Shown here piece by piece: positions 3,265 through 16,845 of a stretch of 64,000 nt of DNA. The number at the start of each line of letters is the position of its first letter. Position 1 is the first letter of the stretch. The notes beneath the pieces are model-generated. The model made no database searches, was not told the origin of the DNA, and worked only from the letters and a program-made list of their open reading frames with translations. Origin of the DNA: Kitasatospora fiedleri (lineage in GTDB: Bacteria; Actinomycetota; Actinomycetes; Streptomycetales; Streptomycetaceae). Location of the stretch: assembly GCF_948472415.1 (NCBI RefSeq), contig NZ_OX419519.1, positions 2,294,001-2,358,000 on the forward strand, read 5' to 3'. Both the position numbers and the translations under genes were made by a program.

Positions 3265-3349
3265 CTACAGCACCTGGAGCACCTTGCGCAGCTCGAACGG
3301 CGTGACCTCCGAGCGGTACTCCTCCCACTCCTGGCGCTTGTTGCGCAGG
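3265..3349 (-). repeat. Left attachment site (att repeat copy 1), a glnA2-like gene tail
   Basis: This 85-bp block matches 15484-15568 with a single difference (C at 3310 against G at 15529). It encodes the last 27 residues and the stop codon of the glutamine synthetase homologue. Here it is detached from its gene and preceded by element DNA. Identity stops abruptly after 3349 and before 3265, as expected for a site-specific crossover within the block. Confidence 0.9.
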
Positions 3350-4041
3350 TTCTGGCGATGCTCCATACCAAACTGCAGCTACACCTGGCCAACCTGCCCT
3401 GACCTGGCGGGGAGGCCGCGGCGCCTGTCGACGGTGGTCAGCCTCGGCCTACTTCGCACGGCCCACAGGCGGCCCGAGGCTGGACTCCTGCTTTACAAGG
3501 ACAGGCGTTCGACACCCAGCGTGACCTGGGGAGCTCCCCGCCCTGCCGGCTCCCCGGCCCTCGCACCGCCAGCGCTCGCAACTGACCGCCACGTACCGCC
3601 CGTTCTGGCACGCCTGTGGCATGGTCGCAGCCACAGCACATTGGCGGACAATTACGATCAAGTTGCCGTGGGGACGACTCTGTTGTCGCCCCTGGGAGAG
3701 CGGGGCTTGTTGTCTTATATCCTCCGCCGCCTAGGCCGCTGGCCCACATCGGCCACCCGACTGAGCCATGGCCATCGGCGACTACGGGCCACCCAACGCA
3801 GCTTGGCCGCGGCAGAGCTTCAACAAGCTGCCGCCGAGCTGACTCAAGTGCTACTCAAGATGGCGCGTCCCGCATACAGCTTGTCAGGCGCCTGTCCATC
3901 AAACTGGTCAGACTGATTGCAACTCCTCCAATCCATACCAAGCAGCAGGCGACATGAGTACCTTTAGCCTGTACGGCATGGCATGACTGTCGAGCACGAG
4001 TCGATCAGCCAGGCCGCCCCAGGTGACCGAAGGGAAGACGC
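3350..4041. other. Left end of the element, no convincing gene
   Basis: About 690 bp of intermediate G+C lie between the left attachment repeat and the DUF262 gene. Short open frames occur on both strands, but none has a good ribosome site, Streptomyces-like third positions or a recognisable domain. The last 90 bp hold the upstream region of the DUF262 gene, with GGGAAG a few bases before its ATG. It may hold degraded cargo or arm-type integrase sites; I cannot show either. Confidence 0.4.
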
Positions 4042-5145
4042 ATGACCCTTGAGGATCAGATCAGCTCATATCGTCGACAGATCGCCACAGATTCTTACCC
4101 AATGTCGATCGGGGAAATTTCAAATCTGTATCGAGATGGCGAAATAGATATCCATCCTGAGTTTCAACGAATCTTTCGGTGGAGGGAAAGTCAGAAGAGC
4201 CGACTAATTGAAAGCATTTTGCTGGGAATCCCACTCCCCAGCGTATTTGTTGCTCAGAACGAAAATGGCGTATGGGATGTCGTTGATGGGGTTCAGCGCC
4301 TCTCGACCATCTTTCAGTTCATGGGGATTCTAAAGAACGAGGACGGAGGTCTTCACGAGCCATTGGTTTGCTCGGAGGCACCTTTCCTTACCCAGCTGGA
4401 GGGGTGCTCGTATTCACCGACACAAGGGGCACCCAGCTCACTTTCTCCGACTCAGCGCCTAGACTTCAAGAGGGCGCGAGTCGATATGAAAATTATCAAG
4501 CGGGAGAGCGACAACAGGGCGAAGTACGATCTATTCCAGCGACTGAACTCATTCGGCACAGTAGCCACCGAGCAAGAATTGCGCAACTGCTTGATTGTAA
4601 GCATGAGCAAGAAGCACTTTGAATGGCTTCTCGGAATTTCCGCAGACGAAAACTTCAAGAGTTCGATCGATCTAGCATCTCGGCTCATCGAAGAGCGCTA
4701 CCACATGGAACTGGCACTCAGGTTTGTATTCTTGCGGACGATTGAACCCGAAGACCTGGCCTCTATTAGGAATATTGGCGACTTCCTGACCTCTCGACTG
4801 GTTGCCTTCGCAGATTTCTCCGATCAGCGACTCGAAGAGGAGAAAGAGGCGTTCACAAGGACATTTCAAGCCATCGCATCCGCAGGCGGCCCTGACATCC
4901 TGCGCAGGTGGAACCACACAAAGGCGAAGCCTGAAGGATCATTCTCGCTGACCGCCTTCGAGGCCATTGCGCTGGGAATTGGCCACCACTTCCCCGATCA
5001 ATTTCCATCACCTTCTGAAATCACTACACGCCAGAGCGAACTCTGGTCCAACCCGCAATTCTCGGCTGGTCACGCTACCGGACTGCGCGGCGACCAGCGG
5101 ATGAAGAAGGCCATCCCGTTTGGACGAATGCTCTTCTCGAAGTGA
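4042..5145 (+). CDS. DUF262 (GmrS-type N-terminal) protein, first gene of a candidate defence/toxin pair
   Basis: The 367-residue product shows the DUF262 hallmarks: RIFRW near residues 43-47, the DGVQRLSTI box near 82-90 (the DGxQR motif of this ParB/sulfiredoxin-like fold) and FQRLNSFG...TEQELRN near 165-182. In the GmrSD family such a domain binds and hydrolyses NTP and can nick DNA, usually with a C-terminal DUF1524 HNH nuclease; no such domain is present here. The next gene, 15 bp downstream, encodes a HEPN protein that could supply the nuclease. G+C is visibly lower than in neighbouring genes, a sign of separate acquisition. The ATG has a GGGAAG site. Domain call firm; role inferred. 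Confidence 0.85.
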   Translation: MTLEDQISSYRRQIATDSYPMSIGEISNLYRDGEIDIHPEFQRIFRWRESQKSRLIESILLGIPLPSVFVAQNENGVWDVVDGVQRLSTIFQFMGILKNEDGGLHEPLVCSEAPFLTQLEGCSYSPTQGAPSSLSPTQRLDFKRARVDMKIIKRESDNRAKYDLFQRLNSFGTVATEQELRNCLIVSMSKKHFEWLLGISADENFKSSIDLASRLIEERYHMELALRFVFLRTIEPEDLASIRNIGDFLTSRLVAFADFSDQRLEEEKEAFTRTFQAIASAGGPDILRRWNHTKAKPEGSFSLTAFEAIALGIGHHFPDQFPSPSEITTRQSELWSNPQFSAGHATGLRGDQRMKKAIPFGRMLFSK

Positions 5146-5160
5146 GGGTGGCCGGAAGCA

Positions 5161-5802
5161 TTGGACCTCCAGGGCTTTACCGATAAGATCGACAAGGATC
5201 TCACCAGGCGAAAGCTAGAGCTTTCTCGACTTACCATTCTCGCCAAATCTCAGCATCCAGACACGGCCCAGGAGGCGCTCTCATTTCGGGCTTCAGTGGC
5301 ATTTTCCTATGCTCACTGGGAAGGCTTCTCCAAGAACGCAAGTATGCTTTATGTGAAATTCATCAATAGCCAGAAGGTCCGAGTCACAGACCTGAAGCTG
5401 TGCCTCCAGGCCGCACATCTCCATTCTTCACTCAGGAGAGCTGGAGCTAGCCCGAAATTGGGATACCTCGGGGCAATCCTTGAGGAGCTAGACGTGAATA
5501 GGTCGGCGATATTCTCTGCGACTCCAGAGAAGTGCGTTGATACCGAGAGCAACCTTTCATCGGAAGTTTTTAAATCCCTAGTCCTGGGCCTTGGGCTGCC
5601 ATATCTTGACGCCTACTCAACGCGACAAGCTTTCATCGATGAGAAGATAGTCCACAGCAGGAACCAGGTGGTCCACGGCGAGCTGATCCCATTCAGTCGC
5701 GACGAAGCGCTAGAACGCCTAGAGACCGTTCGCGAGCTAATCGATCTCTACGGGCAGCAACTTATAGATGCTGCAAGAGATCAGCTCTACCTCGCACCTT
5801 GA
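5161..5802 (+). CDS. HEPN-domain protein (MAE_28990/MAE_18760-like), candidate RNase toxin or effector
   Basis: The 213-residue product has the HEPN signature in its C-terminal half: R167-N-Q-V-V-H172, the RX4H active-site pattern of HEPN ribonucleases, followed by a long helix. Near residues 50-56 is YAHWEGF, a motif I associate with MAE_28990/MAE_18760-type HEPN proteins that are often found beside DUF262 genes. The start is TTG at 5161: the upstream stop codon is in the same frame 15 bp earlier and no ATG or GTG intervenes; CCGGAAG serves as ribosome site. The gene forms one operon with the DUF262 gene and shares its low G+C. Abortive-infection or toxin activity is inferred, not shown. Confidence 0.8.
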   Translation: MDLQGFTDKIDKDLTRRKLELSRLTILAKSQHPDTAQEALSFRASVAFSYAHWEGFSKNASMLYVKFINSQKVRVTDLKLCLQAAHLHSSLRRAGASPKLGYLGAILEELDVNRSAIFSATPEKCVDTESNLSSEVFKSLVLGLGLPYLDAYSTRQAFIDEKIVHSRNQVVHGELIPFSRDEALERLETVRELIDLYGQQLIDAARDQLYLAP

Positions 5803-6283
5803 TTCTGCGGCTCGAGATCTGTCAGCCAGCGGGTGGTGGAGCGGTTTTGGCCGGTGTCCTGCCCGGTCTGGGGTCGAGCATGATCGGGGGGCCGTAAGCT
5901 GTTGCGACTCGGTCAGGGCTTTTTGGGCCTGACCGCAATGTGGCCGAGTGGCCCCCCGTTCTTGCTCGACGCGGGGCCCGGTCCTGGCAGGTGGGTAAAA
6001 CCGTGGAGCCGCCCGCCCCCAGCCCCGGCGGGTTTGGGGCCTCTGCCCTCGCTCTCGGACTTGCCGTGTGCGTGGCTGGGCCGCCGCCGGCGCGGGGCGA
6101 AGACAGGAGCGGAGGCGAGCGGCCAGGGCCGCGCGCTGGCGCGCTGTGCGCGCCTTGATGAAGTAGCGAAACTCGTAACACCCCCCATCCCTCCACCTCA
6201 CTCACCCCGACGGAACTTGGCTCAGGGCATGGGCGTGCCGATGGGTGACCACCATTAGGTTCTAACGATGCCGGTGGGCCTGA
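5803..6283. other. Gene-free stretch of the element between the cargo and the Nudix gene
   Basis: About 480 bp lie between two convergent gene ends. I see G-rich and C-rich stretches and a short inverted repeat (GTCAGG near 5917, CCTGAC near 5930) around a T-rich loop that could terminate the cargo operon. Open frames on both strands look like chance frames in G+C-rich DNA. An origin or a small RNA could lie here, but nothing shows it directly. Confidence 0.35.
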
Positions 6284-6754
6284 TCAGCTTGCTGCTGCAT
6301 GCTCGGTGAGCCACTGTCGGCCGTCGTGGGTGCGGATGCTCGGGGCCACCTCGTCGTTGAGCGCGTCCAGGACGCGGACGGCGAACACCTCGGCCATGCG
6401 GTCGGAGACCTCGGCCGGGGTCAGCCACTCGATCGCGGTGGACTCGTCGGACAGCTGCTCGTTCCCGCCTTCGAGGTGGCACCGGAAGACCAGGGCGACC
6501 ACGCCGCGGGTGACGTTCTTGTAGACGCCGGTGAGCCGTTCGACGCCGACCTTGAGGCCGGTCTCCTCGTAGATCTCGCGGCGCACGCCGTCCTCGACGG
6601 TCTCCGTCAGCTCCAGGACGCCGCCGGGGGGCTCCCAGGTGCCGTTGTCCGCGCGGCGGATCGCCAGCACCCGGCCGTCTTCGCGCACCACGGCTCCGGC
6701 AACGGACACGGAGTGGAGGGGCGTTGACTGCGGCTTCGGGGCGCTGTTACTCAT
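6284..6754 (-). CDS. Nudix hydrolase, probable Pif-type transfer-immunity protein
   Basis: The 156-residue protein contains a full Nudix box starting GGVLELTE and continuing through RREIYEETGL, which fits GX5EX7REUXEEXGU and gives the metal-binding glutamates. In the AICE pSAM2 the Nudix protein Pif blocks redundant transfer between cells already holding the element, and the gene sits by korSA as here. The gene is divergent from the GntR repressor with only 29 bp between the start codons. A copy of the putative repressor box ATGTACAGGAG covers its own start codon, so repression by the neighbouring GntR protein is likely. Enzyme class firm; the immunity role rests on synteny. Confidence 0.8.
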   Translation of the reverse strand: MSNSAPKPQSTPLHSVSVAGAVVREDGRVLAIRRADNGTWEPPGGVLELTETVEDGVRREIYEETGLKVGVERLTGVYKNVTRGVVALVFRCHLEGGNEQLSDESTAIEWLTPAEVSDRMAEVFAVRVLDALNDEVAPSIRTHDGRQWLTEHAAAS

Positions 6755-6783: not shown

Positions 6784-7566
6784 ATGGCGAGTAGTGAGCT
6801 GGCGGGGTCGGCGAAGGCGAAGAAGTACTTGCAGATCGCCGATGACCTGGCCGCAGAGATCAAGGCGGGCACCCTTCGTCCGGGTGACTCGGTGCCGAGT
6901 GAAGCCGACCTGATGGAGCGTTACGGGGTGGCCTCGGGCACCGTGCGCAACGCCATCGCCGAGCTGCGGACGGCGCAGCTCATCGAGACCCGGCACGGGA
7001 AGGGCTCCTTCGTCCGCTCCCGTCCCCCGGTGCAGCGCAAGTCGTCCGACCGCTTCCGGCGGGCCCACCGCAAGGCGGGCAAGGCGGCCTACATCGCCGA
7101 GACCGAGGCGTCCGGCAGCAAGCCCTCCGTCACGGTGCTGTTCATCGGGCCGACCGAAGCGCCGGCCGACATCGCCGAGCGGCTCCAGGTCCCCGCGGGC
7201 ACCCAGGTCCTCGCCCGGCGGCGCCGGTACTTCCGGGACGGCGTGCCGACCGAGGAGGCGACCTCGTACCTGCCATGGGACGTGGCGAAGGACATCCCGG
7301 AGCTGTTCGCGGAGAACCCGGGCGGCGGTGGCATCTACCAGCGGCTGGAGGACCACGGCTTCACGCTTGCCGAGTACGGGGAGACCGTCCGGGCCCGGCT
7401 GGCGACCAAGGCTGAGGCGACCGCACTGGCACTGAGCCCTGGTGCGGCGGTGATCCACCTGGTGCGGGAGGCCGTCACCACCACCGGCCGCGTGGTGGAG
7501 GTCTGCGACACGCTCATGGCCGCTGACCAGTTCGTTCTGGACTACCGGTTCGCCGCCACCGACTGA
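6784..7566 (+). CDS. GntR/HutC-family repressor, KorSA-like
   Basis: This 260-residue protein has an N-terminal winged-helix GntR domain (about residues 12-80, with GTLRPGDSVPSEADLMERYGV and GTVRNAIAELRTAQLIETRHGKGSFV-type features) and a C-terminal UTRA ligand-binding domain (about 95-255). In pSAM2-like elements KorSA holds the transfer and replication genes silent. The start is supported by AAGGA six bases upstream. A hairpin terminator follows the stop at once, separating it from the downstream operon. Three copies of ATGTACAGGAG flank the gene. The domain call is firm; the KorSA role follows from gene order. Confidence 0.85.
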   Translation: MASSELAGSAKAKKYLQIADDLAAEIKAGTLRPGDSVPSEADLMERYGVASGTVRNAIAELRTAQLIETRHGKGSFVRSRPPVQRKSSDRFRRAHRKAGKAAYIAETEASGSKPSVTVLFIGPTEAPADIAERLQVPAGTQVLARRRRYFRDGVPTEEATSYLPWDVAKDIPELFAENPGGGGIYQRLEDHGFTLAEYGETVRARLATKAEATALALSPGAAVIHLVREAVTTTGRVVEVCDTLMAADQFVLDYRFAATD

Positions 7567-7665: not shown

Positions 7666-7703
7666 GAGTGCAGGAGGTCACCTCATATAGAGGAGATGCA
7701 GCC

Positions 7704-8045
7704 ATGGCTGTGTTCAAGGTCGACACCTCCACCGCCTTCGTGTTCGTCGCCGTCCCGCCCGCCCCGAAGGTCGTGAACCGGCAGACCGGCGAGATCGCCG
7801 TCGACCGGGAGACCGGCGCGAAGATGATGACGGTCGGGCTGACCATCGCCGACGAGGGCGAGGCGAACCTCTACACCGTCTCGGTGCCGGAGGCCGGCCT
7901 GTCGGAGTCGCTGGCGGTCGGGATGCCAGTTGCCCTCACCGGTCTCAAGGCGCGGGACTGGGAGAACGAGTTCAACGGGCAGAAGCGGCACGGGATCTCG
8001 TTCCGCGCGGCGGCCGTCACCTCGCTCGTCCCGGTTCAGGGCTGA
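7704..8045 (+). CDS. SCO3933-like small regulatory protein of AICEs
   Basis: The 113-residue product starts at ATG 7704 behind an AGGAG site. It resembles the conserved small AICE protein family named after SCO3933: the opening residues FKVDTSTAFVFVA, a central NRQTGEIAVDRETG segment and a C-terminal part rich in V and A ending ITSLVPVQ-like. It lies first in the transfer operon, just downstream of the paired operators and before the FtsK gene, as in related elements. No catalytic motif is visible and the exact biochemical role is not known to me; the call as a regulator follows family naming. Confidence 0.65.
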   Translation: MAVFKVDTSTAFVFVAVPPAPKVVNRQTGEIAVDRETGAKMMTVGLTIADEGEANLYTVSVPEAGLSESLAVGMPVALTGLKARDWENEFNGQKRHGISFRAAAVTSLVPVQG

Positions 8046-8186: not shown

Positions 8187-9437
8187 GTGACGTACGGCAG
8201 CACCATGGACGCCTGTGGCCTGACCGTCGCCCCGTCCCCGCTGCGGATCGCCATCACCCGGGCGACCACCCGGCGGGAGATCCGGCCGGTGCCGCCCCGG
8301 ATTCGCCGCATCCGGCCGACGACCACCGGTCTCAAGGTCAGGCTGCGGCTGGCTCCCGGCCAGGAACCGGCGGACCTGCTGGCTTCGGCCGAGCGGCTGC
8401 GGCACGCCTGGGGCGTCCACAGCGTTCACGTCGCGGTGGTCAAGCCCGGCGTCGTCGAACTGCGGATGACCGGGTACGACGTGCTCCGCAAGGTGCGGAT
8501 GCCGCGCACCCCGCTGACCGGTGAGCTGGTCGTCCCCGTCGCCCTGCGCGAGGACGGCACGGCCTTCGTCCGCGACTACCGGGCGGTGCCGCACGCGCTG
8601 ACGCTCGGGGCCACACTGTCCGGCAAGTCGATGTACCTGCGAAACCTGGTCGCCCAACTCGCCCGCACCGAAGCCGCGTTGGTCGGCATCGACTGCAAGC
8701 GCGGCGTCGAACAGGCCCCGTTCGCCTCCCGGCTGACGGCGCTGGCGACCGACCCAGTGCTGGCAAGTGACCTCCTGGACAACCTCGTTGAGCTGATGGA
8801 GCAGCGCTACGACCTGATCCGCGCCCATCAGAGCATCCCCTCTGCGATCCCGACCGAGGACATCACCTCGGACGTCTGGGGCCTGCCGGCCAAACTCCGG
8901 CCGGTACCGGTCGTCCTGCTGGTGGACGAGGTGGCCGAGCTGTTCCTGGTCGCCAGCCGCAAGGACGAGGAACGGCGGGACCGAATGGTCACCCAGCTGA
9001 TCCGCCTCGCCCAGCTCGGCCGGGCCGCGCACATGTACGTCGAAGCCTGCGGCCAGCGCTTCGGGGCCGAGCTGGGCAAGGGGGCGACCATGCTCCGGGC
9101 CCAGCTCACCGGCCGGGTCGTGCACCGCGTCAACGACAAGGCCACCGCCGAGATGGGGCTCGGCGACGTCTCGCCGGACGCCGTCTTCGCCGCCACCCAG
9201 ATCCCGCCGGACCTGCCCGGCGTCGCGGTGGCCGGTGACTCCTCCGGCGGCTGGTCTCGCATCCGGACCCCGCACCTGACGCTCGCCGAAGCAGCCGCCA
9301 TCTGCCGGGCGAACGCCCACCGCGCACCCGTGATCGACCAGTTGGAACGGTTCCGCCCCTACGTTCCACCCACGGCTGTCGTCCCGCCGAAGCCGTCCTT
9401 CCCGCCGCGCTTCTCGGCTTCGCCGGTCACCGAGTAA
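8187..9437 (+). CDS. FtsK/SpoIIIE-type DNA translocase, TraSA-like conjugation protein
   Basis: The intact frame gives 416 residues with an FtsK motor: Walker A GATLSGKS near residue 148, Walker B VPVVLLVDEVAEL near 245 and a sensor-like arginine-rich stretch QLIRLAQLGRAAH after it. In actinomycete conjugation this single protein pumps double-stranded DNA between hyphae as a hexamer. The GTG at 8187 is only the first start in this frame; the likely true start is the GTG at 8050, separated by an apparent one-base loss. Spread genes follow within 100 bp, consistent with one transfer operon. Family firm; start uncertain. Confidence 0.85.
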   Translation: MTYGSTMDACGLTVAPSPLRIAITRATTRREIRPVPPRIRRIRPTTTGLKVRLRLAPGQEPADLLASAERLRHAWGVHSVHVAVVKPGVVELRMTGYDVLRKVRMPRTPLTGELVVPVALREDGTAFVRDYRAVPHALTLGATLSGKSMYLRNLVAQLARTEAALVGIDCKRGVEQAPFASRLTALATDPVLASDLLDNLVELMEQRYDLIRAHQSIPSAIPTEDITSDVWGLPAKLRPVPVVLLVDEVAELFLVASRKDEERRDRMVTQLIRLAQLGRAAHMYVEACGQRFGAELGKGATMLRAQLTGRVVHRVNDKATAEMGLGDVSPDAVFAATQIPPDLPGVAVAGDSSGGWSRIRTPHLTLAEAAAICRANAHRAPVIDQLERFRPYVPPTAVVPPKPSFPPRFSASPVTE

Positions 9438-9534: not shown

Positions 9535-10221
9535 ATGCGTCTCCCGCGCCCGGACGCCGTACTCATCCAAGCCGCCATCGCCGGTGCGCTGTCCTTCGCC
9601 CATCTGCACGACGTCGCCGAAGCCGCCGGCCAGCACGACTGGAAGGCGTGGGCGTACCCCGTCTCCGTCGACCTGCTGCTGGTCGCGGCCTGGCGGCGGA
9701 TGCGCCACCTCAAGTCCGCCGGGGAGCCGGTGGGTTCGGCCTGGACCTGGTTTGGGATCGCGCTCGCTGCCTCGCTCGGCGCGAACGTCGCCACCGCCGG
9801 ACTGCTCGACCTCACCGACGTCCCGGCCTGGCTCCGCATCCTGGTCGCCGGTTGGCCCGCTCTCGCGTTCTTCGGCGGCACCCTGCTCGCCCACGGGAAC
9901 AGCACGGCGACAGAGCCCGAACTCACCCCCGAAGAAGTCGACTTGCCGGTGTACGAGCCCGATCTGCCGACCGATCTTCCGGACGCCGAACCCGAGCCCG
10001 AAGCCGTCGAAGCACCTCCGGCCCCCGCCGCTCTGCCGGCCGCTCCCGCCCCGGCACCCACACCCGCCGTCGCCGTCCCGGCCGCGCTGGTCGACCACGC
10101 CCGCAAGGTCGCCGACGACCACCGGGCCCGGACCGGCGAGCCGATCGACACCGAGACCCTGCGCGTCCGGCTCGGCGTCCCACCGCACTTCGCCACCGCC
10201 ATCGCCGCCCAGCTCACCTGA
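9535..10221 (+). CDS. DUF2637 membrane protein, SpdB-like spread protein
   Basis: The 228-residue protein has four hydrophobic segments in its first 125 residues (including VSVDLLLVAAWRRM and FGIALAASLGANVATAGLLDL), the DUF2637 pattern, then a long acidic and proline/alanine-rich linker and a C-terminal region resembling a small helix-turn-helix (about 180-228). Such Spd proteins help spread the transferred element from septum to septum along the recipient mycelium, giving pocks. The ATG is preceded by GGAGGAAAGG, an excellent ribosome site. It lies between the translocase and a small transfer gene in the same direction. Confidence 0.75.
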   Translation: MRLPRPDAVLIQAAIAGALSFAHLHDVAEAAGQHDWKAWAYPVSVDLLLVAAWRRMRHLKSAGEPVGSAWTWFGIALAASLGANVATAGLLDLTDVPAWLRILVAGWPALAFFGGTLLAHGNSTATEPELTPEEVDLPVYEPDLPTDLPDAEPEPEAVEAPPAPAALPAAPAPAPTPAVAVPAALVDHARKVADDHRARTGEPIDTETLRVRLGVPPHFATAIAAQLT

Positions 10222-10231
10222 GAGGTCACCC

Positions 10232-10423
10232 ATGCCCCGCCCGATCCGCCTGCGCAACGTGATGCGCATCGGCCCCGTCCAGGTCGGCACCTACTTCGAC
10301 AACCGTGGCCGCGAGAAGCACACCGCCGCCTGCACCGCCCCGCGCTGCGGCTTCTCCGCCGACTACGACAGCCGCCCCGCCGCCGAGATCGCCGCCCGCA
10401 CCCACCGCTGCACCGTCCGCTGA
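10232..10423 (+). CDS. Small mobile-element transfer protein (SpdA-like)
   Basis: A 63-residue protein starts at ATG 10232, 10 bp after the spdB-like gene, with GAGAGG as ribosome site. It has the look of the small AICE transfer proteins: a basic start (MPRPIRLRNVMRIGPVQVGTY), a pair of cysteines (C..PRCGF) and a final HRCTVR. Two-cysteine pairs suggest a small zinc-binding or DNA-binding fold. Identification rests on size, position and general resemblance. Confidence 0.6.
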   Translation: MPRPIRLRNVMRIGPVQVGTYFDNRGREKHTAACTAPRCGFSADYDSRPAAEIAARTHRCTVR

Positions 10424-10436
10424 CAGGAGAACCGCC

Positions 10437-10634
10437 ATGAACGTCACCCTTCCGCTCGTGTTCGTCCTCGGCGTCGGTGCCTGGGCCGTCGTCCGCTTCC
10501 TCAACATCCGTATCTGGGTCGCCGTCGTGATCGGCCTGTTCGGCTTCTACCTGGCGAACACCTTCCTCGCTCCGGTCATCGACGGCACCACCCGCTCCGG
10601 CGTCGACGTCATCAACACCACCCAGCAGAAGTGA
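10437..10634 (+). CDS. Small two-helix membrane protein of the spread operon
   Basis: The 65-residue product starts at ATG 10437 behind ACAGGAG. It is mostly hydrophobic: a first helix around LPLVFVLGVGAWAVVRFL and a second around IWVAVVIGLFGFYLANTFL, followed by a short polar tail. It sits in the run of spread genes with 13 bp to its upstream neighbour, and small membrane proteins of this kind commonly accompany SpdB. No specific family is recognised. Confidence 0.6.
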   Translation: MNVTLPLVFVLGVGAWAVVRFLNIRIWVAVVIGLFGFYLANTFLAPVIDGTTRSGVDVINTTQQK

Positions 10635-10647
10635 CCGGGGGCCGACC

Positions 10648-11184
10648 GTGAACGCCACCCTCCTGCTGCCGGACTCGCTGTCGCTCACTCCCGAAGGCTC
10701 GGCCCTGGTCGCGGAGATTGAGGCGTACCTCGCCACGCTGCCTGTCCAGGCCCGCGCGGTCATGCCGTTGATCTGCAACTACGGCAGCACGGTCCAGCGG
10801 TGGAACGCGGGCTTCCCACAGCCGCGGCTGTCCGTACTGGACCGGCTCGCACACCGCCCGGCTCGCCCGGTCGCCGTCACCGTCGCGGACCACCTGCGGT
10901 TGACCTCCCGCTACCTCGCCGAAGTCGGCTGGGTACAGGGTGCCCTATGGGACTCCGCCGGCCGCGTCTGCCTCCTCGGCGCCCAAGCCGCCGTCCTGCT
11001 CAACGGCTACGGCACCCCGTACACCGTCCGCCGGGCCCGCACCCAGGTCATGGAAGTCCTGCACACCACCGGACGGCCCGTCGCCTCCCCGGACGCCTTC
11101 AACGACGCCTCCGGCACCCGCCAGGCCGACGTGCACCACCTGCTCGACCGGGCCTCCGCCCGCGCCCTCTCCCTCGGCATCTGA
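10648..11184 (+). CDS. DUF6197-like protein
   Basis: The 178-residue product starts at GTG 10648, 14 bp after the previous gene. Its second half has the DUF6197 pattern: GWVQGALWDSAGRVCLLGA, then a FND motif (DAFNDASG) and a final helix ending in ARALSLGI. The first half (QARAVMPLICNYG, WNAGFPQPRLSVLDRL) is less clear. Proteins of this type are common on actinomycete plasmids and AICEs; their function is unknown. It may be translated by coupling to the upstream gene, since its own ribosome site is weak. Confidence 0.55.
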   Translation: MNATLLLPDSLSLTPEGSALVAEIEAYLATLPVQARAVMPLICNYGSTVQRWNAGFPQPRLSVLDRLAHRPARPVAVTVADHLRLTSRYLAEVGWVQGALWDSAGRVCLLGAQAAVLLNGYGTPYTVRRARTQVMEVLHTTGRPVASPDAFNDASGTRQADVHHLLDRASARALSLGI

Positions 11185-11236
11185 ACCGGTCCCCGGGACG
11201 GCAGCAAGCCGCCAAGCATCCCGCCGCCCCGGAGAC
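11183..11236 (+). repeat. Intergenic hairpin element, copy 1
   Basis: GAACCGGTCCCCGGGACGGC and the adjacent CAGCAAGCCGCCAAGCATCC recur almost unchanged at 11806 onward. The outer arms GGTCCCCGGGACG and CGCCCCGGAGACC pair imperfectly. This copy starts at the stop codon of the DUF6197-like gene and ends before the ribosome site of the GGDEF gene. Confidence 0.55.
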
Positions 11237-11261
11237 CTCGACCCGCTCCGGAAGGACCGCC

Positions 11262-11801
11262 ATGGAACTCGCCCCGCTCCTCGCCGCCGGTGTGCCCCTG
11301 CTCGGCTGGACCACCCACAGCACCGTCCTCGCCCGCCGCCTGGCCACCGCCCGCCGCGACCCGCTGACCGGGCTACTCACCCGCGACGGCTTCACCACCC
11401 GCGCCGAACGCCTCATCCGCCGCCACCCCGAGCGCACCACCGTCCTGCTGATCGACCTGGACGACTTCAAGGCCGTCAACGACACCCACGGCCACGCCGC
11501 CGGAGACGCCGTACTCACCGCCACCGCCCACCGCCTCGCCACCTGGTGCGGCACCGACGGCATCGCCGCCCGCCTCGGCGGAGACGAGTTCGCCGCCGTC
11601 GTCCTGGATGCCGAACACCGCGTCCCCGACCTGCGCGGCCTGCTCCACCACCCGGTCCCGTACGGCACGCAGTTGCTGGCCGTCGGCGCGTCCGTCGGTA
11701 CCTCGCACCCGGCCACGCTGCTGCTCACCGAAGCGCTCTCGGCGGCCGACCGCCAGATGTACGCCGCCAAGCCCGGCGCCCGTACCGCGCGCCGCCGCTG
11801 A
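11262..11801 (+). CDS. GGDEF-domain protein, putative diguanylate cyclase
   Basis: The 179-residue protein starts at ATG 11262 behind GGAAGGA. After a short hydrophobic N-terminus (LAPLLAAGVPLLGW) a GGDEF domain runs from DPLTGLLTRDGF (about residue 33) through LLIDLDDFKAVNDTHGHAAGD to an intact RLGGDEF (about 107-113). The metal- and substrate-binding residues of an active cyclase making c-di-GMP are present; no RxxD inhibitory site precedes GGDEF. There is no sensory domain. In streptomycetes c-di-GMP controls development through BldD, so the element could influence its host, but that is inference. Similar hairpins precede and follow the gene. Confidence 0.8.
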   Translation: MELAPLLAAGVPLLGWTTHSTVLARRLATARRDPLTGLLTRDGFTTRAERLIRRHPERTTVLLIDLDDFKAVNDTHGHAAGDAVLTATAHRLATWCGTDGIAARLGGDEFAAVVLDAEHRVPDLRGLLHHPVPYGTQLLAVGASVGTSHPATLLLTEALSAADRQMYAAKPGARTARRR

Positions 11802-11805
11802 AAAC

Positions 11806-11861
11806 GAACCGGTCCCCGGCACGGCAGCAAGCCGCCAAGCATCCCGTCGTGCCGGGGACCT
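11806..11861 (+). repeat. Intergenic hairpin element, copy 2
   Basis: This copy has perfect 13-bp arms, GGTCCCCGGCACG and CGTGCCGGGGACC, around a 24-base loop whose sequence (GCAGCAAGCCGCCAAGCATC) is shared with copy 1. It lies between the GGDEF gene and the next ribosome site. It could act as RNA structure in the long transfer/replication transcript. Confidence 0.6.
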
Positions 11862-11902
11862 CAACCTTCCCCGAACCGAAGTCCGCGAAGGAGACCACCA
11901 TC

Positions 11903-12085
11903 ATGACCCAGCCCCGCCATGCCCAGGGCCGCATCTGCCCGAACTGCGACGGCTTCCCCCGCGTCGCCATCGCCACCGGCACCCGCCGCCCGGACGGCAG
12001 CCGCACCACCGCCCCGGTCACCTGCCCGGCCTGCCAGGGCAGCGGCACCGTCCGCCGCGCCGCGCTCACCGCCGTCCAGAGCTGA
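11903..12085 (+). CDS. Small CxxC zinc-ribbon-like protein
   Basis: The 60-residue product starts at ATG 11903 with GAAGGAG upstream. It has two paired-cysteine motifs, CPNC and CPACQGSG, spaced about 30 residues apart, as in DnaJ-type or small zinc-ribbon proteins. It lies just before the replication initiator gene. A nucleic-acid or protein binding role is plausible; no specific family is recognised. Confidence 0.6.
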   Translation: MTQPRHAQGRICPNCDGFPRVAIATGTRRPDGSRTTAPVTCPACQGSGTVRRAALTAVQS

Positions 12086-12159: not shown

Positions 12160-13572
12160 GTGAAGAACCAGCTCACCGAGCGACCCGACCTCGCTCTCCT
12201 CGACCTCGCCCGGCTCGCCGCCCGCGGCGACCTGCCCCGGCTCGAAGACCAGATCCGCCGGACCGGCGGGTGCGCCAACCCGATCCACCTCAAGGGCTTC
12301 CGCACCCTCCTGCACGCCCCCACGAAGGCGGTGTGGCACCGCTACTCGACCGACCAAGAGCCCGGCCACCGGCTCAAGGTCGCGTGCGGCAACCGCCGTG
12401 CCTCCCGCTGCCCCGCCTGCGCCCGCACCTACTCGGCCGACACCTACCACCTGATCCGCGCCGGGCTCGCGGGTGACGACACCAAGGGCGTCCCGGAGAC
12501 GGTGCGCTCACACCCCCGCGTCTTCGCGACCCTCACCGCCCCCTCGTTCGGCCCCGTCCACAACCGGCCTGACCATGGTCACTGCCGCTGCGGCACCGCC
12601 CACCTGGCAAGCTCGCCCCTCCTCGGCAGCCCGCTCGACCCGGACACATACGACTACGCGCACGCCGTGCTCTGGAACAACCACGCCCCCGACCTGTGGC
12701 GGCGCTTCACCATCTACCTGCGCCGCGAAGTCGCCCGCCGCGCCGGCCTGACACTGCGTGAGTTCCGCGAGACGGCCAAGGTCTCGTTCGGAAAGGTTGC
12801 CGAGTACCAGCGCCGGGGCGCGGTCCACTTCCACGCCGTGATCCGCCTCGACGGGCCCGATGGCGCCGACACCGCCCCGCCCTCCTGGGCCACTGTCCCG
12901 CTGCTGGACGACGCCATCCGGGCCGCCGCCCGCCGCGTCGGCGTCCCCCTGGCCGCCGCCGGTGACCTGCCTGCCCGGGTGCTGCGCTGGGGCAAGCAAC
13001 TCGACGTCCGGCCCATCGGCGCGTTCGGCTCCGGCGAGATCAGCGAACAGGCCGTCGCCTCGTACGTGGCCAAGTACGCCACCAAGAGCGCCGAGACCAC
13101 CGAGACCATGGACCGCCGCGTCCTGGAGCGCCACGAACTCGACCGGCACGACCTGCCGGACCACACCCGCCGCCTGATCGAAGCCTGCTGGGACCTCGAC
13201 TCGCTCTACCCGCAACGGCTGCTCGCGCACTGGTCGCACATGCTCGGCTTCCGCGGCCACTTCTCGTCCAAGTCGCCCGGCTACTCGACCACCCTCGGCG
13301 CGCTCCGCCAGGTCCGCGCAGACTTCCGCGCCGAGCAGGCCCGCGCCGACCTCCGCGCACGCCTCCTCGCCGCCGGCCTTCCGGACCTCGACGACCTGGC
13401 CGACGCCGAAACCCTGGTCGTCGCCCACTGGTCCTTCGCCGGAGCAGGCAACTCCCCCGGCGAATCCATGCTCGCCGCCTCGATCGCCGCCGAGCTGCAC
13501 GAACGCCGCACCACCGACCGACAGGAACTGCACGCGCAACTCGCGTGGGAGGAGAACGACACATGGCTGTGA
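12160..13572 (+). CDS. RepSA-like rolling-circle replication initiator
   Basis: The protein is 470 residues from GTG 12160, which has AAGGGAGG six bases upstream (GTG 12154 is possible). An N-terminal Cys-rich zone (CGNRRASRCPACARTYSADTYHLI) is followed by the HUH metal motif in GAVHFHAVIRL and, further on, YVAKYATKS with the tyrosine expected to nick and bind the origin. This is the replication initiator family of pSAM2 and SLP1. The excised element needs it to replicate and to provide copies for transfer. The gene overlaps the start of xis by 10 bp, so rep, xis and int form one translationally coupled operon. Confidence 0.88.
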   Translation: MKNQLTERPDLALLDLARLAARGDLPRLEDQIRRTGGCANPIHLKGFRTLLHAPTKAVWHRYSTDQEPGHRLKVACGNRRASRCPACARTYSADTYHLIRAGLAGDDTKGVPETVRSHPRVFATLTAPSFGPVHNRPDHGHCRCGTAHLASSPLLGSPLDPDTYDYAHAVLWNNHAPDLWRRFTIYLRREVARRAGLTLREFRETAKVSFGKVAEYQRRGAVHFHAVIRLDGPDGADTAPPSWATVPLLDDAIRAAARRVGVPLAAAGDLPARVLRWGKQLDVRPIGAFGSGEISEQAVASYVAKYATKSAETTETMDRRVLERHELDRHDLPDHTRRLIEACWDLDSLYPQRLLAHWSHMLGFRGHFSSKSPGYSTTLGALRQVRADFRAEQARADLRARLLAAGLPDLDDLADAETLVVAHWSFAGAGNSPGESMLAASIAAELHERRTTDRQELHAQLAWEENDTWL

Positions 13573-13766
13573 GGGGGGCACTGCCCGATCGCTACCTGAC
13601 CCCCATCGACCTGGCCGGGCTTCTAGGCATTCCGGTGGAGACCGTCTACCAGTGGCGGCGCAAGCGCACCGGTCCGCCCGGCTTCCGCGTCGGCCGGCAC
13701 CTGCGCTACGACCCGGCCAAGGTGCACGCCTGGATCGAGACCCTGAGCGAGGAGGTGGCTGCCTGA
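13563..13766 (+). CDS. Excisionase (Xis), helix-turn-helix protein
   Basis: The 67-residue protein begins at ATG 13563 inside the end of rep. YLTPIDLAGLLGIPVETVYQW is the first part of a MerR-like HTH_17 domain, followed by a basic wing (RRKRTGPPGFRVGRHLRYD) and a short helix KVHAWIE. Such proteins bend DNA at the attachment sites and steer the integrase to excision. Its stop overlaps the start of int as ATGA. Call and start are both well supported. Confidence 0.85.
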   Translation: MAVRGALPDRYLTPIDLAGLLGIPVETVYQWRRKRTGPPGFRVGRHLRYDPAKVHAWIETLSEEVAA

Positions 13767-15382
13767 TGGCCGGACACATCCAGGACCGCTGGTTCAAGAC
13801 CGAGCCCGGCCCCGAGGGCAAGCCGCGGCGCGTCAAGTCCGATCGGCACGGCACCGGCCTGCGCTACCGGGCCCGCTACGTCGGCCCGGACGGCACCGAG
13901 AAGTCCAAGAGCTTCCCCGACCGCCAGAAGCGCAAGGCGGACGAGTGGCTGGTCCGGATCGAGGCGGACATGTCCCGGGGCCAGTACATCGACCCGAAGG
14001 CCGCCCGGACCACCTTCCGGCAGTACGCCGAGCGGTGGTTGGAGAACCAGCTCACCAGCGGCACCACGCAGGCGTCAGTGCGGAGCCAGATCAACCTGCA
14101 CGCGATCCCGTACCTGGGCCCGCGGCCGATGGACTCCTTCCAGCCCTCGCACATCCGCGACTGGCTGTCCGCGCTGGAGAAGGCGGTGCCGGCGTCCTCC
14201 TACCGGCGCGTCATCTTCACCAGCGTCTCGGCCATCTTCACCGCCGCGGTCGAGGACCGGATTCTGACCACGAACCCGTGCCGCTCCCGTTCTGTCACCA
14301 AGCCCAGCGCGGCCCGGGGCAGGGTCCGCCCCTGGACGGAGGAGCGGGTGGGTGCGGTGCGCGCTGCCCTGCCCGGCCGGTACCAGGGGATGGTGGACGT
14401 GGGCGGCGGCTGCGGCCTGCGGCAGGGGGAGATCTTCGGCCTGCCGGTCGATGAGATTGACTTCGCCACCGGCTGGGTGCACGTCACCTGCCAGATCAAG
14501 GACATCGGCGGGCACCTGGTGTTCGCACCGCCAAAGCGGGAGAAGGAGCGGGACACCCCGATGGCACCGGCCACCGGCCGGGCCCTGCAGAGCCACCTGG
14601 CGGAGTACCCGCCCGTCGCGGTCACGCTGCCGTGGATGCGGCCCGACGGGCGCATGGTGACGAAGCTGCTGGCGTTCACCAAGGAGGACGGCTCGCCGGT
14701 CCGCCGCAGCGACTTCAACACCTACGCCTGGAAGCCCGCCCTGGTGGCCGCGGGCGTCATCCCCGCGCCCGAGCCCGGCAAGCGGGCGCAGGCGGCCCGG
14801 GAGCACGGCATGCACGCGCTGCGGCACTTCTTCGCGTCGGTGCTGCTGCACCGCGGCGAGAACCCGAAGGCGCTGAGCACCTACCTGGGCCACAGCGATC
14901 CGGGCTTCACCCTGCGCGTCTACACCCACCTGATCCAGGAGGCCGCGGACCGTTCACGCGACCGGCTGGACCAGGCGTTTCAGCCCGATCTGCTGGGCCT
15001 GTACGCGGGCCTGCTGCTCCAGCAGGTGGCGTCCACCACGCTCGACCTCCCGGAGCGGCTGTTCCGCGACGGGATCGCGGTGGTCCACCTGCACGGCGGC
15101 CGGTACGGCGACCGGTGGGTGGTGGGGGTTCAGGAGTCGGCCGGCGGACCGGTGCTCGGCCGGGTCGAGATCTCCCCCGCGCCCGACCAGCCCGGGGCGA
15201 CGTGGTTCGCCCGGCAGTGGCTCACGATGCACTGCGAGCAGCAGGGCCTGGACGTGCTCAGCGTCGAGGACTTGAGCGACCGTTACGGCCCGGCCGAGCG
15301 TGAGCACTTCGTGCTGGGCCGGGTGGTGCTGGCGCGGCCGCAGCCCGAGCCGTGGGGAGCGCCCGCGCTGCCCCCGATCTGA
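13766..15382 (+). CDS. Tyrosine-recombinase integrase with unusual C-terminal extension
   Basis: The 538-residue protein has an N-terminal arm-type/SAM-like DNA-binding domain (about 30-170) and a catalytic domain with R219 (GLRQGE), K258 (PPKREKERDTP), H350 and R353 (HALRHFF), H376 (LGHSDPGF) and nucleophile Y386 (RVYTH). All five catalytic positions are intact. Usual AICE integrases end shortly after the tyrosine; here about 130 further residues follow (from roughly 408), containing a mixed beta-like part (DGIAVVHLHGGRYGDRWVVG) that I cannot place. It sits 101 bp from the right attachment site, the standard position. ATGA overlap couples it to xis. Confidence 0.9.
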   Translation: MAGHIQDRWFKTEPGPEGKPRRVKSDRHGTGLRYRARYVGPDGTEKSKSFPDRQKRKADEWLVRIEADMSRGQYIDPKAARTTFRQYAERWLENQLTSGTTQASVRSQINLHAIPYLGPRPMDSFQPSHIRDWLSALEKAVPASSYRRVIFTSVSAIFTAAVEDRILTTNPCRSRSVTKPSAARGRVRPWTEERVGAVRAALPGRYQGMVDVGGGCGLRQGEIFGLPVDEIDFATGWVHVTCQIKDIGGHLVFAPPKREKERDTPMAPATGRALQSHLAEYPPVAVTLPWMRPDGRMVTKLLAFTKEDGSPVRRSDFNTYAWKPALVAAGVIPAPEPGKRAQAAREHGMHALRHFFASVLLHRGENPKALSTYLGHSDPGFTLRVYTHLIQEAADRSRDRLDQAFQPDLLGLYAGLLLQQVASTTLDLPERLFRDGIAVVHLHGGRYGDRWVVGVQESAGGPVLGRVEISPAPDQPGATWFARQWLTMHCEQQGLDVLSVEDLSDRYGPAEREHFVLGRVVLARPQPEPWGAPALPPI

Positions 15383-15483: not shown

Positions 15484-15568
15484 CTACAGCACCTGGAGCA
15501 CCTTGCGCAGCTCGAACGGCGTGACCTCGGAGCGGTACTCCTCCCACTCCTGGCGCTTGTTGCGCAGG
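15484..15568 (-). repeat. Right attachment site (att repeat copy 2), element-supplied gene tail
   Basis: This block is joined to the complete glutamine synthetase gene and supplies its last 27 codons and stop. The only difference from the left copy changes a serine codon from TCG (left) to TCC (here), so the protein is unchanged. The crossover lay somewhere within these 85 bp. Confidence 0.9.
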
Positions 15569-16845
15569 AAGAAGTCGAAGACGTGCTCGCCCAGGGTCTC
15601 GGCGACGAGTTCGCTGCGCTGCATGAGGTCGATGGCCTCGCCGAGGTTCTGGGGCATGGGCTGGATGCCGAGGGCGCGGCGTTCGGCGTCGGTGAGGGCC
15701 CAGACGTCGTCGTCGGCGCCGGGGGGGAGTTCGAGGTTGTCCTCGATGCCCTTGAGGCCGGCGGCGAGGGTGACGGCGTAGGCGAGGTAGGGGTTGCAGC
15801 CGGTGTCGAGGGAGCGGACCTCGATGCGGGTGGAGCCCTGCTTGCCGGGCTTGTACATGGGGACGCGGATCAGGGCGGAGCGGTTGTTGTGGCCCCAGCA
15901 GATGTAGGAGGGGGCCTCGCCGCCGGCTCCGGCGGTGCGCTGGGAGCCGCCCCAGATGCGCTTGTAGGAGTTGACCCACTGGTTGGTGACGGCGGCGGTC
16001 TCGGCGGCGTACTTGAGCAGGCCGGCGATGAAGGAGCGGCCGACCTTGGAGAGCTGGTACTCGGCGCCGGACTCGTGGAAGGCGTTGCGGTCGCCCTCGA
16101 AGAGGGAGACGTGGGTGTGCATGCCGGAGCCGGGGTGGTGGGAGAACGGCTTGGGCATGAAGCTGGCGTGGACGCCCTGTTCGAGGGCGACCTCCTTCAT
16201 GACCAGGCGGAAGGTCATGATGTTGTCGGCGGTGGAGAGCGCGTCGGCGTAGCGCAGGTCGATCTCCTGCTGGCCGGGGGCGCCCTCGTGGTGGCTGAAC
16301 TCGACCGAGATGCCCATGGATTCGAGCATGGTGATGGCCTGGCGGCGGAAGTCGTGGCCGATGCCGCGCGGGGTGTGGTCGAAGTAGCCGGACTGGTCGG
16401 CGGGGGTCGGCGGGGTGCCGTCGCCGGGGAGGTCCTTGAGGAGGAAGAACTCGATCTCGGGGTGGGTGTAGAAGGTGAAGCCGAGGTTGGAGGCCTTCTC
16501 CAGGGTGCGCTTGAGGACGTAGCGCGGGTCGGCGTAGGAGGGGGAGCCGTCGGGCATCAGGATGTCGCAGAACATCCGGGCGGTGCCGGGGTTCTCGGAG
16601 CGCCACGGCAGTATCTGGAAGGTGGTCGGGTCCGGCTTGGCGATCATGTCGGACTCGTAGACCCGGGCGAAGCCCTCGATCGCCGAGCCGTCGAAGCCGA
16701 TGCCCTCCTCGAAGGCCTGTTCCAGTTCCGCCGGGGCCACCGCCACCGACTTGAGGAACCCGAGCACGTCGGTGAACCACAGCCGGACGAACCGGATGTC
16801 ACGCTCTTCGAGCGTGCGAAGCACGAACTCCTGCTGCTTGCCCAT
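15484..16845 (-). CDS. glnA2: Glutamine synthetase family protein, GlnA2-like (probable gamma-glutamylpolyamine synthetase)
   Basis: The 453-residue protein has GS signatures: FDGSAIEGFARV near the N-terminus, HPEIEFFLLKD for metal binding, HHEGAPGQQEID, GSGMHTHVSL and the NPYLAYA stretch. Size fits a type I-beta enzyme. In Streptomyces coelicolor a homologue near glnE and the NAD synthetase gene is GlnA2, reported to gamma-glutamylate polyamines rather than make glutamine; the gene order here fits that one, but ammonia-dependent activity cannot be excluded. The reading frame is complete although its tail is contributed by the inserted element. The ATG at 16845 has a plausible AGAGGTG site. 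Confidence 0.85.
   Translation of the reverse strand: MGKQQEFVLRTLEERDIRFVRLWFTDVLGFLKSVAVAPAELEQAFEEGIGFDGSAIEGFARVYESDMIAKPDPTTFQILPWRSENPGTARMFCDILMPDGSPSYADPRYVLKRTLEKASNLGFTFYTHPEIEFFLLKDLPGDGTPPTPADQSGYFDHTPRGIGHDFRRQAITMLESMGISVEFSHHEGAPGQQEIDLRYADALSTADNIMTFRLVMKEVALEQGVHASFMPKPFSHHPGSGMHTHVSLFEGDRNAFHESGAEYQLSKVGRSFIAGLLKYAAETAAVTNQWVNSYKRIWGGSQRTAGAGGEAPSYICWGHNNRSALIRVPMYKPGKQGSTRIEVRSLDTGCNPYLAYAVTLAAGLKGIEDNLELPPGADDDVWALTDAERRALGIQPMPQNLGEAIDLMQRSELVAETLGEHVFDFFLRNKRQEWEEYRSEVTPFELRKVLQVL

Follow-up and report, generated by a model that had tools for sequence, protein, structure and literature searches.

A CdgD-type diguanylate cyclase gene is carried by an AICE in Kitasatospora fiedleri and may hold the mycelium vegetative while the element spreads

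The 64,000-nucleotide stretch of Kitasatospora fiedleri DNA analysed here (the window) contains a stand-alone GGDEF diguanylate cyclase gene of the CdgD type inside an integrated element, and the closest relatives of this cyclase are likewise an AICE gene, a linkage observed directly in their genomic neighborhoods and new to the description of these enzymes. We propose, with a probability of about 0.5, that a CdgD-type cyclase of this mobile lineage makes c-di-GMP, loads BldD and keeps the mycelium vegetative during spread of the element. The gene and its conserved leading segment are located as follows.

11262..11801, plus strand: stand-alone GGDEF diguanylate cyclase gene, CdgD-type, 179 aa
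11262..11351, plus strand: conserved hydrophobic N-terminal segment, residues 1-30

The first-pass annotation had placed an intact GGDEF protein here, and its coordinates, frame and motif were right: the Pfam GGDEF family matches residues 31-173 with 97.1 bits against a curated cut-off of 23.8 (E 1.2e-27), and the motifs (I)DLDDFK, NDTHGHAAGD and GGDEF, whose residues have metal- and nucleotide-binding roles, are all intact. Relatives at 64-96% identity in 19 other genomes of the genus show that this is not a chance reading frame. The four residues at -9 to -6 relative to GGDEF are GTDG and do not form an RxxD inhibitory site, in line with the earlier statement; among the AICE-type relatives sampled, the window copy included, all 42 retain both an intact GGDEF motif and a G at -6. 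A sensor domain is also lacking, as claimed, yet residues 1-30 are conserved and hydrophobic, with an L..GW..H pattern that is kept among relatives and missing from one shortened copy (L028); this segment is a possible membrane anchor or dimer helix. The nearest solved structure by sequence is 4yme (E 5.5e-22). Judging from the sequence and from reports on its relatives, the enzyme very likely synthesizes c-di-GMP. The NG86 dN/dS median of 0.57 (RepSA 0.54), an estimate that is unreliable at this G+C, gives no strong signal of constraint, and IMG/VR yielded no close relative of the cyclase, the best match being 49% identical over part of the protein.

The host element is a 12,304-bp pSAM2-type AICE of the RepSA class, bounded by an 85-bp att repeat whose copies are identical at 84 of 85 positions. 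Carriage by an AICE, as originally proposed, is thereby borne out: RepSA, FtsK/TraB, Spd, Xis and Int, the set by which a RepSA-type AICE is recognized, all lie between the repeats. The genes run from the nudix gene to the integrase in the order listed, with the cyclase gene between the DUF6197 and zinc-ribbon genes.

3265..3349, strand not given: attL-side copy of the 85-bp att repeat
6284..6754, minus strand: nudix gene, presumably in a position like that of pif in pSAM2
6784..7566, plus strand: GntR-UTRA regulator, KorSA-like (Pfam)
7668..8045, plus strand: SCO3933-family regulator, Pra-like
8187..9437, plus strand: FtsK/SpoIIIE (TraB-like) transfer protein (Pfam)
9535..10221, plus strand: DUF2637 (SpdB2-like) spread protein (Pfam)
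10232..10423, plus strand: SpdB mobile element transfer protein (Pfam)
10437..10634, plus strand: small hydrophobic protein of the spd cluster, no Pfam family, conserved among related elements
10648..11184, plus strand: DUF6197 gene, directly 5' of the cyclase gene (Pfam)
11903..12085, plus strand: zinc-ribbon-like gene, 60 aa, with CxxC pairs; weak sub-threshold Pfam matches, position conserved
12160..13572, plus strand: RepSA rolling-circle replication initiator, 718 bits, above the equivalog cut-off
13563..13766, plus strand: Xis-like HTH protein (Pfam)
13766..15382, plus strand: tyrosine integrase
15484..15568, strand not given: attR-side att copy, inside the glutamine synthetase gene at its 3' end

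PMC8584621 identifies SCO3933 as a homologue of Pra. Integration (15484-16845) took place in the glutamine synthetase gene at its 3' end, with no tRNA gene involved, and the end of that gene is restored by the att repeat. G+C drops to 0.58 at the element's left end (3349-6280), and the cargo pair there (4042-5802), which encodes a GmrSD_N-like protein and an HEPN protein of the RiboL-PSP type, is possibly a defence module.

Relatives at 64-100% identity are present in 20 of the 70 genomes of the genus, the window's own included, and RepSA lies at most 1.7 kb from the cyclase gene at 19 of these 20 loci, the exception being a 7.4-kb contig. Across the family, at least 120 of 297 genomes match a nine-row profile at E <= 1e-37, a lower bound given that 11 candidates were scored per genome, and the order spd genes, GGDEF, zinc ribbon, RepSA recurs in 19 of 20 loci sampled among the best-scoring outside the genus; the one departure, L219, has a Prim-Pol-type FtsK. 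The first-pass annotation had suggested looking for co-occurrence across AICEs, and these two samples provide it. The gene is nonetheless optional, since only 18 of 82 same-genus RepSA matches of at least 434 bits (counted by hand) carry it; one further cyclase-bearing element of the genus has a split RepSA. Among mid-range loci, FtsK, DUF2637, Prim-Pol, YfjI or Int is nearby in 13 of 20, and any element marker or WhiB, RRQRL or DUF6197-like genes in 18 of 20, with none in L304 and L308. Remoter relatives reside on Prim-Pol AICEs and plasmids; one example is the excised Prim-Pol AICE of the named circular record NZ_CP107792.1, in which GGDEF comes straight after DUF2637. In the contig profile search, the matches listed were mostly generic GGDEF proteins.

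Two observations concern relatives on plasmid records. The linear-plasmid-type relatives L245, L305, L306, L312 and L316 adjoin WhiB-family genes, some of them Lsr2 genes as well, a possible further set of development genes on plasmids. The 27.8-kb "plasmid" record NZ_CP071873.1 (L300) encodes the same AICE proteins twice over and looks like the dimeric form of an excised RepSA element.

A tree of 78 rows places all 53 mobile-context rows, a label that also covers a few rows whose element marks are weak or absent (L304, L308, L309), on one side of a branch of length 0.87 with support 100/99, and 24 other GGDEF domains together with L039 on the opposite side. The branch itself is unsurprising because the rows were picked by similarity to the window protein; the location of the clade members on elements was not a selection criterion. 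As far as these sequences indicate, the cyclase lineage lives mainly on actinomycete mobile elements. Within that lineage the gene shuffles among element backbones, as three results show. Between the window and the elements G023/G024, identity is 96% for GGDEF, 74% for DUF6197, 70% for the zinc-ribbon protein and 54% for RepSA; in 171 pairwise comparisons among 19 elements, the identity of GGDEF correlates with that of RepSA at 0.04, of the zinc-ribbon protein at 0.09, of DUF6197 at 0.22 and of TraB at 0.38; and an exchanged block can be delimited, from about 10951 to 11902 against G023/G024 and from the DUF6197 start to 11902 in G022.

The cyclase gene is flanked by two copies of a 61-nt hairpin, 87% alike over 68 nt and with the conserved loop CGCCAA(G/A).

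11183..11243, plus strand: hairpin 1, with covarying stem and conserved loop; it starts at the upstream gene's stop codon
11806..11866, plus strand: hairpin 2, between the GGDEF gene and the zinc-ribbon/RepSA genes

Both hairpins are found at 19 of the 20 loci of the genus and one only at L028 (39 copies in total). Among 32 distinct copies, both sides change in 9 of the 15 stem pairs, a covariation matched by 0 to 3 of 500 shuffles on four of five measures and by 61 of 500 on the fifth; across family loci, in an alignment that was fitted to the structure and includes five off-target or reverse rows, 92% of cells are paired and 12 of 15 pairs change on both sides. The hairpin model matches in at least 135 of 297 family genomes (E <= 1e-4), and we consider this covarying hairpin to be an undescribed element. 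RepSA lies downstream at 36 of 40 hairpin loci sampled outside the genus and is lacking at the other four, and a cyclase gene accompanies only 2 of those 36. In three RepSA elements of the genus without a GGDEF gene, one of them in a genome of the same species as the window, just one hairpin is present, and it lies between DUF6197 and the zinc-ribbon gene. These single-hairpin elements, together with the association with RepSA, indicate that the hairpin is a feature of the AICE rep junction, with the cyclase gene as an optional insertion that brings or duplicates a hairpin. Many Streptomycetaceae AICEs have the hairpin at their rep junction (L129, L130, L131, L172-L231), and a few copies are close to Prim-Pol or to other large genes (L133, L204, L205). 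In L022 and L023 an extra inverted repeat, TGACGGG ACTTGAA CCCGTCA, which resembles a tRNA T-arm, lies between hairpin 1 and the cyclase gene.

We lean towards reading the hairpin as an mRNA control element, on the sequence grounds that it begins within one base of a stop codon in 59 of 66 copies (counted by hand) and follows the direction of RepSA in all 62 copies with RepSA (five off-target or reverse rows dropped). The types of base pair speak against an RNA hairpin, since sense-strand G.U does not exceed A.C: 15 versus 24 in the A3 alignment (5 rows and duplicates dropped) and 8 versus 38 in the A2 alignment. A c-di-GMP riboswitch or other known RNA was rejected: the only Rfam hits of the hairpin were two miRNA models, with E values of 4.6 and 9.5, and at the gathering cut-off only RNase P was matched across the window. 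A bistable switch was rejected as well, the inner stem showing no covariation, with 0 pairs changed on both sides. Rolling-circle origins with a GGDEF cassette between them find no support as such in the exchange boundaries, which lie near 10951 (inside DUF6197; further upstream for G022) and 11902 (zinc-ribbon start) and not at the hairpins, or in the four sampled hairpin loci without RepSA; in a check for a pC194-type nick site, the lower-strand CTTG was not invariant, some copies having TTTG. A better candidate than the hairpins for a replication origin or clt site, as far as conservation can indicate, is the non-coding block at 5829-6158, which is 88-94% conserved in the 3-4 closest comparisons and 81% in one more, between elements whose proteins are mostly 58-80% identical, and which holds a 32-nt inverted repeat (5862-5893 / 5950-5981) and CTTG.

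Despite being described as a host gene, cdgD of S. coelicolor fits a location on an element. It is SCO5345, and ssfg_02343 is the cdgD of S. ghanaensis, both without RxxD (PMC7911125). The S. coelicolor island Gi-12 spans SCO5327-5350, has pSAM2-like functions and is absent from S. lividans (PMC1934918); an AICE there is named Sco5349 (PMC3218068). SCO5345 falls within the Gi-12 span, and the interval from it to Sco5349 fits the five consecutive genes GGDEF, zinc ribbon, RepSA, Xis and Int seen in the window. The window protein, a stand-alone GGDEF domain of about 180 aa without RxxD, is accordingly CdgD-type, its link to SCO5345 being one of gene order, architecture and literature, drawn without a sequence alignment. 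The earlier statement that AICEs offered no such study needs correction: relatives have been studied, as CdgD, and the searched passages of the CdgD papers present it as a host gene and mention no mobile element. In a literature search covering few subscription journals, no paper joined CdgD with AICEs, GGDEF with AICEs, or pocks with c-di-GMP.

Those relatives bear directly on function. The S. coelicolor CdgD is cited in PMC7911125 as a working cyclase (from Liu et al. 2019) whose overexpression blocks development. Overexpression of the S. ghanaensis gene caused developmental arrest and lowered moenomycin, whereas its deletion left morphology unchanged and raised moenomycin; no soluble protein was obtained for assay, and a local c-di-GMP compartment was proposed (PMC7911125). 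In S. venezuelae, CdgD is reported as least conserved and well transcribed, with CdgD-FLAG hardly detectable and a deletion without developmental effect (PMC6205966). The first-pass annotation had named inactivity in vitro and lack of a developmental effect on overexpression as grounds for giving up the idea; for the CdgD relatives these grounds have already failed, since the protein is reported active and its overexpression arrests development.

BldD had been proposed as the c-di-GMP target, and the host BldD does carry the intact signature, RGDYNGKVLSIRQDD, of the form RGD-X8-RQDD (PMC4151990); the same source reports that an overexpressed cyclase, CdgB, blocks development, and RsiG/WhiG is a second target (PMC13232838). 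Under our main reading, c-di-GMP would be made when the tra-spd-rep genes are expressed, presumably upon activation of the element, and would load BldD and possibly RsiG/WhiG; septation of the mycelium would then be held off and its vegetative growth prolonged during replication and spread of the element. The cyclase would in this way benefit transfer, for which delayed sporulation is a plausible route. A stronger version, which we hold only tentatively and consider rather unlikely, is that the lineage is a dedicated brake: c-di-GMP would rise in the recipient, BldD would be armed and septation postponed, adding to the pock phenotype, and the stop-codon hairpins would hold cyclase and rep back while the element is integrated. 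The unchanged morphology of cdgD deletions in two species and the scarcely detected CdgD-FLAG count against the main reading. The published knock-outs, however, were presumably made with the element integrated and kept quiet by KorSA-type repression, and we infer that they would therefore not test a benefit to the element. If CdgD is an element gene, its patchiness would follow from mobility and its quietness from dormancy of the element. The cause of pock formation is called unclear in PMC8584621, and it would become directly testable with a live versus a dead cyclase.

Other explanations compete with this developmental role. The cyclase could act on an element-encoded partner (Tra, Spd or a regulator) and control transfer or copy number of the element itself, leaving development at large unaffected. 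The hydrophobic N-terminus, which could place it at the membrane, its position beside spd genes in two AICE classes and the compartment proposed in PMC7911125 are in keeping with such local signalling; we judge it improbable, as Pfam found no known c-di-GMP-binding domain in the element's proteins and CdgD overexpression acts globally (PMC7911125). We regard as similarly improbable that the gene is a neutral or silent passenger, barely translated while integrated and with no selected role. Its restriction to a minority of RepSA elements would suit a passenger, as would the deletions without a morphological phenotype and the hardly detectable protein of S. venezuelae, but the motif is intact in 42 of 42 copies, the position is kept across genera, and the moenomycin increase in the S. 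ghanaensis deletion means that CdgD does something.

That increase, with the converse decrease on overexpression (PMC7911125), might instead point to cargo that modulates host secondary metabolism, altering antibiotic output for the benefit of the carrier and not of transfer; an AICE GntR regulator is also reported to bind antibiotic promoters (PMC8584621). The cyclase gene sits in the tra-rep core, however, and not at the variable cargo end of the element, and we consider this explanation the least probable of the three.

Compared with known systems, the window element shares the modules korSA-pra-tra-spd-rep-xis-int with pSAM2 and other RepSA AICEs. To our knowledge, pSAM2 itself carries no cyclase gene. 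Cyclase genes on integrative conjugative elements do exist in SXT-type elements, as the first-pass annotation stated, being found in three SXT/R391 ICEs at hotspot 3 (PMC2791158); these differ in having an unrelated transfer system, Gram-negative hosts and a cyclase that is variable hotspot cargo, whereas that of the window is a syntenic core gene. The plasmid-borne pCdgG (PMC6205966), encoded on a linear plasmid in S. venezuelae and equated here with vnz_RS37870 on NZ_CP018075.1, falls on the same side of the tree and is about 52% identical over the aligned part, but its gene is longer (678 bp), adjoins WhiB and Lsr2 genes and has no hairpin at E <= 0.01. CdgD itself (SCO5345, vnz19760, ssfg_02343) is, like the window protein, a stand-alone GGDEF domain lacking RxxD, and its S. 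coelicolor member is found in an AICE-bearing island in a matching order of locus numbers.
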